Assembly: GCA_012519635.1 (NCBI GenBank)
Contig: JAAYPV010000079.1
Coordinates: 1 to 33,208, forward strand
Direction of reading: 5' to 3'
Length of the DNA: 33,208 nt
From: Clostridiales bacterium
Lineage (GTDB): Bacteria > Bacillota > Clostridia > Oscillospirales > Ruminococcaceae
Below the pieces are notes generated by a model. That model saw nothing but the letters and a program-made list of their open reading frames with translations. It ran no database searches and was not told where the DNA came from. The position numbers and the translations under genes were made by a program. Shown one piece after another: positions 1,321 through 22,589 of this stretch; the first letter of the stretch is position 1, and every line of letters starts with the position of its first letter.

Positions 1321-1530
1321 AGAAGCAAAAAGCATTCTGCCTTGTTCGCGGTAATATAGTTATTATATAATCCAACACATATATAAAGGGAATCTAACTC
1401 TGTATTGAGGATTGCAGACCTCCCACTTTAATAGTGGACGAAGGGAGCGTGAGACTTACAGGAGGATACCCACCTGCTTATTGCGGGTTTTATATGCTAT
1501 ATGGTCGGCAAGGCGGTTTATTTTAAAAAA
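1321..1530 (+). ncRNA. ssrS: 6S RNA
   Basis: A free-standing RNA gene of about 200 nt with its own promoter and terminator. The closing stem pairs GCCTTG (1339-1344) with CAAGGC (1509-1514), next to the conserved TTCGCGG on the 5' side and GGTCGG on the 3' side. This matches the 6S pattern in which GUUCGC faces CGGC across the closing stem. Between them lies a long imperfect hairpin with a large AT-rich central region, expected to mimic an open promoter. By family knowledge it binds sigma-A RNA polymerase and damps transcription in stationary phase. The 3' end is uncertain. The call rests on motif and architecture; a covariance-model search (Rfam 6S) would settle it. Confidence 0.78.
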
Positions 1531-7070: not shown

Positions 7071-7739
7071 TTATTGCGCAGTTGTCACTTTTTCATCAGT
7101 TTCAGCGATTGTTTCCATACCATCTGTTGTTTCCATCATATCCGTTTCGCCCATTGATGTTTCCTCATCCGATATTTCAGAAGTAATATCACTTCCTGTT
7201 ATATCAGTTCCAATTCCACCAAATGCAAAGTCGCTAAACTCAATGACTAAATCTAAATTTGGCATTTCAAATGAGTTAAGCAGCCCTGTTTCCTTGTCTA
7301 GCTTGATTTCATAATCACCCTGCTCAGTTCTGCCCTCAATAACCATATACTCTTTATCATTAATTACCTCAATGGTATCCTTAGCTGCTGTTTCGTCAAT
7401 AATGCTAAATAAATTGCTCATCATGGACTTTATCGGTAACGCAGATTTTGGTACAGAAAAGCTTAATCCCTTATATGATGCTGTTACCTCATCATCCATA
7501 AACATCAGCTTTACTCCAGCTAATGTATTTGGTTGTGAGAAATATGCCTCCCACGCACCGTTTCCAAATCGCTTTACCTCTGCCTCTGAAAGAAGATCGC
7601 CGTACTTCATCTTGACATTACATGAAAAAGAGCTGTCAAGCTTAGGCTTAATTTCCTTTTTTACTTTCCCAACCTTGCCGCAAGCAGACAAAGTAAGAAT
7701 ACTGATTACCACTAACATCAATGCAAAAATCCTTTTCAT
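7071..7739 (-). CDS. Predicted lipoprotein of unknown function
   Basis: A 222-residue exported protein: M-K-R start, a hydrophobic stretch, then the lipobox L-S-A-C-G, so the mature protein would be lipid-anchored through Cys on the outer face of the membrane. The next 150 residues look like a beta-rich fold resembling LolA/LppX-type lipoproteins (repeated K-M-K-Y, F-M-D-D-E and Y-E-I-K-L-D-K-E-T-G patterns). This is a fold impression only. The C-terminal 45 residues are Thr/Glu/Asp/Met-rich and probably unstructured. The start is the second Met (7739): GGAG lies 6 nt before it, while the upstream ATG at 7751 has GGAG too close. It stands alone, convergent with trxA. Confidence 0.7.
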   Translation of the reverse strand: MKRIFALMLVVISILTLSACGKVGKVKKEIKPKLDSSFSCNVKMKYGDLLSEAEVKRFGNGAWEAYFSQPNTLAGVKLMFMDDEVTASYKGLSFSVPKSALPIKSMMSNLFSIIDETAAKDTIEVINDKEYMVIEGRTEQGDYEIKLDKETGLLNSFEMPNLDLVIEFSDFAFGGIGTDITGSDITSEISDEETSMGETDMMETTDGMETIAETDEKVTTAQ

Positions 7740-16680: not shown

Positions 16681-16720
16681 AAATTATTAATTCATTTTGT
16701 AGACACTTCTAAATTATTAA
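16681..16720. repeat. Two AAATTATTAA direct repeats before the glnN promoter
   Basis: The decamer occurs at 16681-16690 and again at 16711-16720, exactly 30 bp apart (about three helix turns), the second ending 7 bp before the -35 box. It could be an UP-element-like or regulator-binding pair. In DNA this AT-rich, chance is possible. Confidence 0.3.
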
Positions 16721-16727
16721 ATTACTA

Positions 16728-16756
16728 TTGACAAACCTATAAACATACTATAAAAT
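16728..16756 (+). promoter_or_regulatory. Promoter of glnN
   Basis: A perfect TTGACA (16728-16733) and TAAAAT (16751-16756) are 17 bp apart. Transcription would start near 16763, about 100 nt before the ATG. Confidence 0.65.
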
Positions 16757-16780
16757 AAAATTAAAATTAAATGTAAATAT

Positions 16781-16860
16781 CAGAAACAATGGCGTTTCAG
16801 TATGAGGCAATTCTCCTTGCCTTATATTTGAAACTCCTTTTATTTTAAGGAGGATTTTTT
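16781..16860 (+). promoter_or_regulatory. Attenuator-like leader of glnN
   Basis: Three segments compete. GAAAC (16783-16787) pairs with GTTTC (16794-16798) around a 6-base loop. GTTTCA (16794-16799) can instead pair with TGAAAC (16829-16834), enclosing a second perfect hairpin, AGGCAA/TTGCCT (16805-16822). CTCCTT (16834-16839) pairs with AAGGAG (16847-16852), followed directly by six T and the ATG, which makes a terminator that also hides the ribosome-binding site. The long hairpin and the terminator share C16834. This is a plausible RNA switch; the ligand or protein is unknown. Confidence 0.55.
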
Positions 16861-18963
16861 ATGTCCGAAACTGCTAAACAGCAAAATATCTCCGAATATT
16901 TTGGTTGCAATGTTTTTAATGAAACTGTAATGAGAGATAGACTCCCTAAAAAGGTTTATGAAGCTGTTATGAAAACCAAAAATTTAGGAACAGCTTTAGA
17001 TAACAGTGTTGCAGATATTGTTGCTAATGCTATGAAAGATTGGGCTGTTGAAAAAGGAGCTACTCATTATACACATTGGTTCCAGCCAATGACTGGTATT
17101 ACTGCTGAAAAGCATGACTCCTTCTTATCTGCTGCTGAAAACGGCAAAGCAATTCTTGACTTTTCAGGTAAGGAGCTTGTAAAGGGTGAACCGGATGCCT
17201 CCTCATTCCCATCTGGTGGATTAAGAGCAACATTTGAGGCAAGGGGTTACACTGCTTGGGACCCTACATCCAATGCCTTTATAAAGGATAATTCACTTTA
17301 TATCCCTACTGCATTCTGCTCATATACAGGTGAAATCCTTGATAAAAAAACTCCTCTTCTCCGCTCAATGGAGGTTATTAATCAGCAAGCCTTAAGAATT
17401 TTGAAGTTATTTGGAAATACTACTGCAACAAGAGTAATAACAACTGTTGGTGCTGAACAGGAATATTTCCTGATTGATAAGAAATTATTTGATCAGCGTA
17501 AAGACTTAGTGCTTACAGGCAGAACCCTTTTTGGAGCAAAGCCTCCTAAAGGACAGGAGCTTGAAGACCACTACTTTGGAAATATTAAAAAACGAGTTTC
17601 CGACTTTATGAAGGATTTGGACATGGAGCTTTGGAAACTCGGAGTTTATGCCAAAACTGAACACAATGAGGCTGCTCCTGCACAGCATGAGCTTGCTCCT
17701 TTATTTACTACTGCTAACATTGCTGCTGACCATAATCAGCTCACTATGGAATTGATGAAAAAAACAGCATTAAAGCATGGTCTGGTATGTCTGTTGCACG
17801 AAAAGCCTTTTGCTGGAGTTAATGGTTCAGGTAAGCATAATAATTGGTCACTATTGGCAAATGATGGGCAAAATCTTCTTGATCCGGGTGATACTCCACA
17901 AGAAAATCTTCAATTTCTCCTATTCCTATGTGCTATCATAAAGGCCGTTCATACTTATGCGCCACTTCTAAGGCTATCAGCTGCCAGCGCTGGAAATGAC
18001 CACCGTTTAGGTGCTAATGAGGCTCCTCCTGCTATCGTTTCTATTTTTATCGGAAGTAACCTAGAGGGCGTTCTTAATGCATTAGAAAAAGGTAAAACCT
18101 ATGTAGCACCAACTAATCAGGAATTTGTTATCGGTGTAGACGCACTACCAAACTTCCCTAAGGATACCACCGACAGAAACAGAACATCACCATTTGCATT
18201 TACAGGTAATAAATTTGAATACAGAATGCTTGGTTCTTCTGACTCAATTTCATGTGTTAACACCATTATCAATACCATTGTAGCACAGGTTCTTAGTGAA
18301 TTTGCAGACGAACTTGAACAAGCTGATAACTTTGAATCAGCATTGCGACAACTCATGGCAAGAACAATCAAAGAACATAAAAGCATTATCTTTAACGGCA
18401 ATGGCTATTCTGAGGAATGGATTGCTGAGGCTGAAAGACGAGGTTTGCCAAATCTTCCGACTACTGCTGATGCGTTGCCTCATTATTTAAAGGACGAATA
18501 TGTCAGCGTATTTGAAAAGTTTAAAATTTATACAAGGGCTGAGATAGCGTCAAGAACTGAAATTCTGCTTGATAATTACAATAAGGTTATAAACATTGAA
18601 GCGTTAACTATGCTGGATATGGCTAATAAGCAAATTTTACCTGCTGCTATAAAGTATACAAAAGAATTATGTGATACTGTAATTGCAAAGAAAGCCATTG
18701 GTATTGAAGGTGGTGCAGAAGAAAAGCTAGTACGCAGACTTTCTGATATCACAAACAGCTTGGATGAAGCGATTTCCGTTCTAAACCAAAAAATAATAGA
18801 TTCAAAAAATTGCAATGGCTCACAGGAATTATCCATGTTCTGTAAAAATGAAATACTTCCTAGCATGCAGTCATTGAGAGCTTTAGCAGATGAGCTAGAA
18901 ACTATTATACCTGATACATTATGGCCTTTCCCAACATATTTAGAATTATTATTTATGATTTAA
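16861..18963 (+). CDS. glnN: Type III glutamine synthetase
   Basis: A 700-residue glutamine synthetase of the large GSIII class, which joins ammonia and glutamate using ATP in the cytoplasm. The length of about 700 separates it from GSI (about 450). Visible family segments are [15 protein letters not shown] near residue 120, the active-site region with V-G-A-E-Q-E-Y-F-L and [13 protein letters not shown], and [10 protein letters not shown] near 320. It is monocistronic, with a strong terminator behind. Control appears to act through the leader at 16781-16860. No GlnR, PII or GOGAT gene is in the window. Confidence 0.96.
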
Positions 18964-19139: not shown

Positions 19140-19382
19140 CTATTCTTCTTTTAGTTCCTTCATGCAAACTGCACAAACACACTTAGTTTTAAAGTCGCCT
19201 AAATCTTCGTTGCTTCCACAAAATACGCATGAAGATTTATACTTCTTAAGTATGATTGAATCCTGGTCTACATAAATTTCCAAAGCGTCCTTTTCAGCAA
19301 TATCAAGTGTTCGTCTTAACTCAATTGGTAGAACAATTCTACCTAATTCATCGATTTTTCTTACGATTCCTGTTGATTTCAT
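19140..19382 (-). CDS. AbrB-family transcriptional regulator with zinc-ribbon tail (copy 1)
   Basis: An 80-residue protein. Residues 1-48 form the swapped-hairpin AbrB/SpoVT DNA-binding domain with the hallmark D-E-L-G-R-I-V-L-P and E-L-R-R-T-L. Residues 52-73 carry C52-x2-C55 and C70-x2-C73, with an extra C68, likely a zinc knuckle or ribbon. The family governs transition-state and sporulation genes in Firmicutes. A paralogue with the same architecture lies at 22344-22589. It is divergent from spmA and monocistronic, with its own promoter and terminator. GGAGGAG precedes the ATG. The target genes are unknown. Confidence 0.9.
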   Translation of the reverse strand: MKSTGIVRKIDELGRIVLPIELRRTLDIAEKDALEIYVDQDSIILKKYKSSCVFCGSNEDLGDFKTKCVCAVCMKELKEE

Positions 19383-22343: not shown

Positions 22344-22589
22344 TTAGACTTTGCTTTTCAATTCTCTCATGCAATCAGCACAAACATATTTTTCTTTAAA
22401 TTCACCAATTGATTCAGAGCTTCCGCAGAATGTACAGTTAGGAGTATATTTTTTAACGATAATATACTCATTATCAGTATAAATTTCTATTGGGTCCTTA
22501 ACGTCAATCTCCATAGTTCGTCTTAATTCCTTAGGTAAGACAATTCTTCCCAATTCATCAACTCTTCTGACAATACCTGTTCTTTTCAT
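22344..22589 (-). CDS. AbrB-family transcriptional regulator with zinc-ribbon tail (copy 2)
   Basis: An 81-residue paralogue of the gene at 19140-19382, about two-thirds identical by eye over its length. The AbrB hairpin (D-E-L-G-R-I-V-L-P, E-L-R-R-T-M) is at residues 1-48, and C52-x2-C55 and C70-x2-C73 form the likely zinc site; the extra C68 of copy 1 is Tyr here, so C68 is probably not a ligand. It has its own promoter and terminator. AGGAAGC stands before the ATG, a weaker ribosome-binding site than in copy 1. Two similar AbrB proteins could form mixed complexes or act at different growth phases. Confidence 0.9.
   Translation of the reverse strand: MKRTGIVRRVDELGRIVLPKELRRTMEIDVKDPIEIYTDNEYIIVKKYTPNCTFCGSSESIGEFKEKYVCADCMRELKSKV

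Follow-up and report, generated by a model that had tools for sequence, protein, structure and literature searches.

The window analysed here, a stretch of 33,208 nucleotides from a Clostridiales genome, carries glnN, the gene of a type III glutamine synthetase (GSIII) and the sole GSIII_N match in the source genome, which is 83.5% complete. A sigma-70-type promoter lies upstream and puts the predicted transcript start at about position 16763, which gives a leader of about 98 nt (Table 1). This leader folds far more stably than its shuffled versions (-25.1 vs -13.2 kcal/mol, z -4.0). All the hairpin sequences named in a preliminary description of this DNA are present in it: a short hairpin with a hexaloop of the ANTAR type, hereafter P1, a longer hairpin, and a CTCCTT/AAGGAG hairpin over the ribosome-binding site. 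Elsewhere, the window holds a 6S RNA at 1331-1523 (+) (Rfam RF00013, 61.4 bits) and, about 3 kb apart on the minus strand, genes for two alike small proteins (19140-19382 and 22344-22589) whose N-terminus is AbrB-like and whose C-terminal part has CxxC motifs.

Table 1. Features of the glnN promoter, leader and gene, in window positions.
Feature	Positions	Strand	Evidence or remark
glnN promoter, sigma-70-type, TTGACA-17 nt-TAAAAT	16728-16756	+	11 of 12 consensus letters
Promoter box TTGACA	16728-16733		
Promoter box TAAAAT	16751-16756		
P1, ANTAR-type hexaloop hairpin GAAAC-AATGGC-GTTTC, proposed antiterminator	16783-16798	+	Conservation, covariation, hexaloop-model score
P1 loop AATGGC	16788-16793		
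Intrinsic terminator hairpin	16791-16837	+	-21.4 kcal/mol, nascent-chain folding, overlap in relatives
Terminator 5' arm GGCGTTTCA	16791-16799		
Terminator 3' arm TGAAACTCC	16829-16837		
GTTTCA/TGAAAC within the outer stem	16794-16799/16829-16834		
Terminator inner stem AGGCAA/TTGCCT	16805-16810/16817-16822		
Terminator U-tract TTTTATTTT	16838-16846	+	Directly after the 3' arm
CTCCTT/AAGGAG hairpin over the ribosome-binding site	16834-16852	+	Arms 16834-16839/16847-16852; probably incidental
Ribosome-binding site AAGGAGG	16847-16853		
T6	16855-16860		Abuts the glnN ATG
glnN, GSIII, 700 aa, ATG at 16861	16861-18963	+	Pfam GSIII_N and Gln-synt_C-ter

Two of these hairpins exclude each other. The 5' arm of the terminator consists of the GGC of the P1 loop followed by the P1 3' arm, so that P1 and the terminator cannot coexist; positions 16794-16798 are common to both, in agreement with what the preliminary description had said of its first and its long hairpin. 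The outer terminator stem is paired at 8 of 9 positions, with one C-U mismatch, its GTTTCA/TGAAAC part encloses the inner stem, and the U-tract is interrupted. The long hairpin had earlier been taken for a second candidate ANTAR hairpin, with the worry that its loop, TTCTCC, breaks the ANTAR rule. The hairpin exists as described but its role was misassigned: it is the intrinsic terminator, and its loop is thus no objection to an ANTAR reading. When the nascent chain is folded, P1 (-2.5 kcal/mol by itself) forms first and persists to position 16832, and the terminator takes over at 16837, where the U-tract begins. The nearest relative, whose GSIII is 88% identical (L002), has kept the outer stem of the terminator, while the inner stem has diverged.

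The P1 loop has A1 and G4, as had been read before, and P1 is the top match of our hexaloop model genome-wide. The next-best matches in the source genome lie inside reading frames or where these begin, with no overlapping terminator detected by eye; at the given completeness, further hexaloop targets may be absent from the data. We fetched 80 GSIII loci and scored the leaders of 79 relatives. Of these 79, 49 contain a hexaloop in the strict sense (loop AANGRC closed by C-G, stem of 4 or more pairs), where dinucleotide shuffles lead one to expect 0.14. For covariation, hairpins were collected by their loop letters alone (C[AG]ANG[AG]CG), leaving out matches in upstream coding sequence. In the resulting 37 distinct hairpins, 89.7% of cells pair, four of the five pairs show changes in both partners, and covariation scores 0.64; shuffling lowers this to 0.31, and sliding to 0.24 or less. 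The P1-type hairpin before GSIII recurs across Clostridia and Treponema. Over both samples of this study, 107 of 139 hexaloops lend their loop end and 3' arm to a terminator-like hairpin, against 8.65 expected with the downstream sequence shuffled. A similar promoter stands shortly before the hexaloop in 93 of the 122 leaders.

If P1 is the target of an ANTAR protein, hexaloop and protein should occur together. The source genome encodes one ANTAR protein (C31:7926-8084), receiver-like, directly downstream of a glnA-like gene. The preliminary description had guessed that a variant ANTAR target may control glutamine synthetase here and had named covariation among relatives and an ANTAR gene in this genome as the things to look for; both were found, and they strongly support the guess. 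Among the 50 genomes of the fetched loci, the 5 without a detectable ANTAR gene all lack a proper hexaloop in the GSIII leader; in one of them (L008) the loop is AATCGC, with G4 lost. We then drew a second sample of Clostridia, evenly and independently, at least 90% complete, which yielded 88 genomes with GSIII leaders. The hexaloop is present in 53 of 63 ANTAR-positive genomes vs 3 of 25 ANTAR-negative ones (p=3e-10), and the association persists when labels are shuffled within families only (p=0.002). The hexaloop and terminator criteria were fixed after the first leaders had been viewed; this class-level sample is independent for the presence of the hexaloop, not for its consensus. There are exceptions. 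Three ANTAR-negative genomes retain hexaloops, which assembly gaps may explain, and two loci (L010, L011) have an ANTAR gene in the genome and no hexaloop in the GSIII leader. In several ANTAR-positive exceptions GSIII is the second gene, behind asnA, which predicts a hexaloop before asnA instead. It is there in L061, L074, L241 and L243-L247, weakly so in L078, and not in L242. The GSIII leaders of L010-L013 have a different terminator hairpin, free of a hexaloop, just after the promoter, perhaps another type of attenuator; L010 and L011 have ANTAR genes, L012 and L013 do not.

These exceptions bear on an alternative, namely that another RNA-binding protein holds P1, or that a riboswitch senses a small molecule, and that ANTAR genes co-occur through shared nitrogen metabolism. 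A few genomes do break the association, and binding of P1 by the ANTAR protein is a proposal. Yet A1 and G4, as in known ANTAR targets, are present in the loop, and within families the hexaloop disappears together with the ANTAR gene. As for a riboswitch, a hairpin of 16 nt is all that is conserved, less than a typical ligand pocket needs, and there is no Rfam match: at gathering score, neither the glnN leader nor the leaders of 20 relatives matched the covariance model of the glutamine riboswitch or of any other Rfam family, and a permissive scan of 16700-16900 returned chance matches below threshold only. We consider this alternative unlikely.

The number of hexaloops is where the glnN leader departs from precedent; in its family, one hexaloop per leader is nearly always the rule. 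All ANTAR targets described so far have two (PMC3369931, PMC8164766), and known ANTAR antitermination requires both (PMC3369931, PMC8934654). The glnN leader has the A1/G4 loop, the overlap with a terminator and an ANTAR protein in the genome; what it lacks is a tandem pair of hexaloops joined by about 2-25 nt, and we therefore file it as a variant rather than as a classical dual-hexaloop member. The precedent invites the explanation that it is a classical target after all, with a second hexaloop that has degenerated and was missed, and about four leaders do look dual (L009, L126, L136, L213), with a second hexaloop 28-39 nt away. However, the 122 leaders show no enrichment of a second A1/G4 hexaloop beside the main one (1 upstream, 2 downstream), nor do they with relaxed stems, and none fits in the window. 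Where a promoter was recognised (93 leaders), P1 follows the -10 box after a median of 12 nt, too little for another hairpin upstream; in the window the spacing is 26 nt. A missed second hexaloop is thus very unlikely. About 12 leaders, mostly from Treponema with a few from Clostridia, have two hexaloops 60-120 nt apart. In seven Treponema GSIII leaders (L031, L033, L037, L043, L046, L055, L057), the promoter is followed by two consecutive hexaloop-terminator units ahead of GSIII, as if to tighten control. In two Clostridium GSIII leaders (L068, L076), the hexaloop-terminator unit lies about 235-250 nt before the gene and a second promoter follows nearer GSIII; this arrangement could yield a short terminated RNA or provide a second start.

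The headline of the preliminary description, that the CTCCTT/AAGGAG hairpin with T6 is a regulated terminator that masks the ribosome-binding site and blocks transcription as well as translation, is scarcely credible and was rejected: the hairpin can form (-7.0 kcal/mol) and is flagged by a consensus terminator scan, but in L002 only four of its pairs remain, the other folded relatives have it in weak or irregular form or not at all, and it is present in the P1-forced fold and in the terminator fold alike, so that it is no switch partner of P1 and nothing would switch it. The blocking once proposed among all the hairpins thus stands for P1 and the long hairpin, and falls for this one, which is compatible with both states. 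It is probably incidental. Complementarity of this kind, CCTTTT before AAGGAGG, arises by itself where a U-tract borders a ribosome-binding site.

The ANTAR protein itself, encoded at L082:3034-3600, shows both conserved and altered features. Compared with EutV (6ww6), Lys149, Glu160 and Met172 are conserved, Arg142 is lost, and a His replaces Tyr164, the stacking residue. At this position, where the Tyr of EutV stacks on G4, nearly all aligned ANTAR proteins (L082, L092-L110) have His, and the Clostridium beijerinckii one has Phe. In the receiver domain, the motif VVNTPL has Asn in place of the phospho-acceptor Asp, which is replaced in the aligned relatives too. The protein thus lacks the residue that marks EutV-type phospho-regulated receiver-ANTAR proteins, and for this reason its receiver is probably not phosphorylated. 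The glnA-like protein encoded before it (L082:1699-2985) is a divergent GSI that scores 324.9 against the NCBI GlnA cut-off of 429.15, which makes a sensor role conceivable; that it is a sensor rather than a main enzyme is speculation. The leader of this glnA-ANTAR unit contains a strong short hairpin, AGGGTAGG-TTTTT-CCTACCCT (L082:1625-1655).

Together, a number of arguments from sequence comparison (the exclusive hairpins, their conservation and covariation, the terminator overlap, the ANTAR co-occurrence and the single-hexaloop architecture) make it very probable that the glnN leader is a transcription antiterminator of the ANTAR type with a single hexaloop. Against this count the two-hexaloop precedent, the His for Tyr164 and the loss of Arg142, the exceptions in L010/L011 and in ANTAR-negative genomes, the C-U mismatch and the interrupted U-tract. 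In the proposed mechanism, P1 would form first as RNA polymerase leaves the promoter. The active ANTAR protein, from the gene beside glnA elsewhere in the genome, would bind the loop, whose G4 is the contact that matters most in the EutV complex already known, and hold P1. Its 3' arm would thereby be kept out of the terminator, and transcription would proceed into glnN. With the protein inactive, TGAAACTCC would capture the loop GGC and the P1 3' arm, and transcription would stop at TTTTATTTT. Binding to P1 and antitermination are proposed, and the direction would be positive, as in EutV, NasR and AmiR. The signal may be nitrogen or glutamine status and, with no phospho-acceptor aspartate in the receiver, might arrive through the neighbouring GSI-like protein.

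The proposed mechanism resembles several known systems. The NasR/nasF and AmiR/amiE leaders likewise control nitrogen genes by ANTAR antitermination, as we propose for glnN, and AmiR is a precedent for an ANTAR protein with a pseudo-receiver; those leaders differ in having two stem-loops (in the revised model), other sensor domains and other hosts. The eut leaders of Enterococcus faecalis, controlled by EutV/EutW, have in common with glnN an A1/G4 hexaloop that runs into an intrinsic terminator and is incompatible with it, and a receiver-ANTAR regulator is likewise encoded by their genome (PMC3369931, PMC8934654). In contrast to glnN, where the one hexaloop itself overlaps the terminator, they have P1 and P2, with P2 overlapping; and EutV is phosphorylated on Asp54, where the protein studied here has no aspartate. 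Predicted ANTAR targets also lie before nitrogen assimilation genes, and general statements in the literature include glutamine synthetase genes among them, but these were found with a dual-hairpin model (PMC3369931, PMC3369936). The glutamine (glnA) riboswitch is likewise a leader RNA that controls nitrogen assimilation genes, unlike the glnN leader in that the latter has only a 16-nt hairpin conserved and matches no Rfam family. In the open-access papers covered, we found neither a single-hexaloop ANTAR target nor a GSIII-leader target or regulon.

A wider reading, which we offer tentatively as possible rather than probable, is that of a nitrogen regulon, widespread in Clostridia and Treponema, that is built on single-hexaloop ANTAR antiterminators. 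It would comprise GSIII, asnA, glutamate synthase-like genes, the GSI-like gene that accompanies the ANTAR gene and, in some cases, gatCAB; one hexaloop would suffice against a moving polymerase, and the regulator would be a phosphorylation-independent pseudo-receiver protein sensing nitrogen through the adjoining GSI-like protein. The leader family bears on how an ANTAR dimer uses its hexaloops: in the structure EutV binds one at a time, whereas eut antitermination needs two, and the authors asked to what extent single-hexaloop targets occur in nature and called for work on them (PMC8934654). This leader family offers more than 100 candidates, with termination as a built-in readout. For the receiver-ANTAR proteins that many gut and rumen bacteria encode beside glnA, it suggests both a target RNA and a regulon. 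The ANTAR gene lies at most 15 kb from GSIII in 26 of the 63 ANTAR-positive genomes (counted by hand from tables), and in such clusters the divergent unit, whether glutamate-synthase-like or glnA-ANTAR, often carries a hexaloop of its own (L248, L249, L252, L253, L256, L260), which suggests autoregulation. The glnA-ANTAR leader of the source genome has no recognisable hexaloop, and no ammonium transporter gene was found in this incomplete genome. Finally, one hexaloop (L258:7808-7823, minus strand) precedes gatC (7205-7495, minus strand) and with it the gatCAB operon. This operon encodes the Glu-tRNA(Gln) amidotransferase, an enzyme that uses up glutamine, and possibly belongs to the same regulon.
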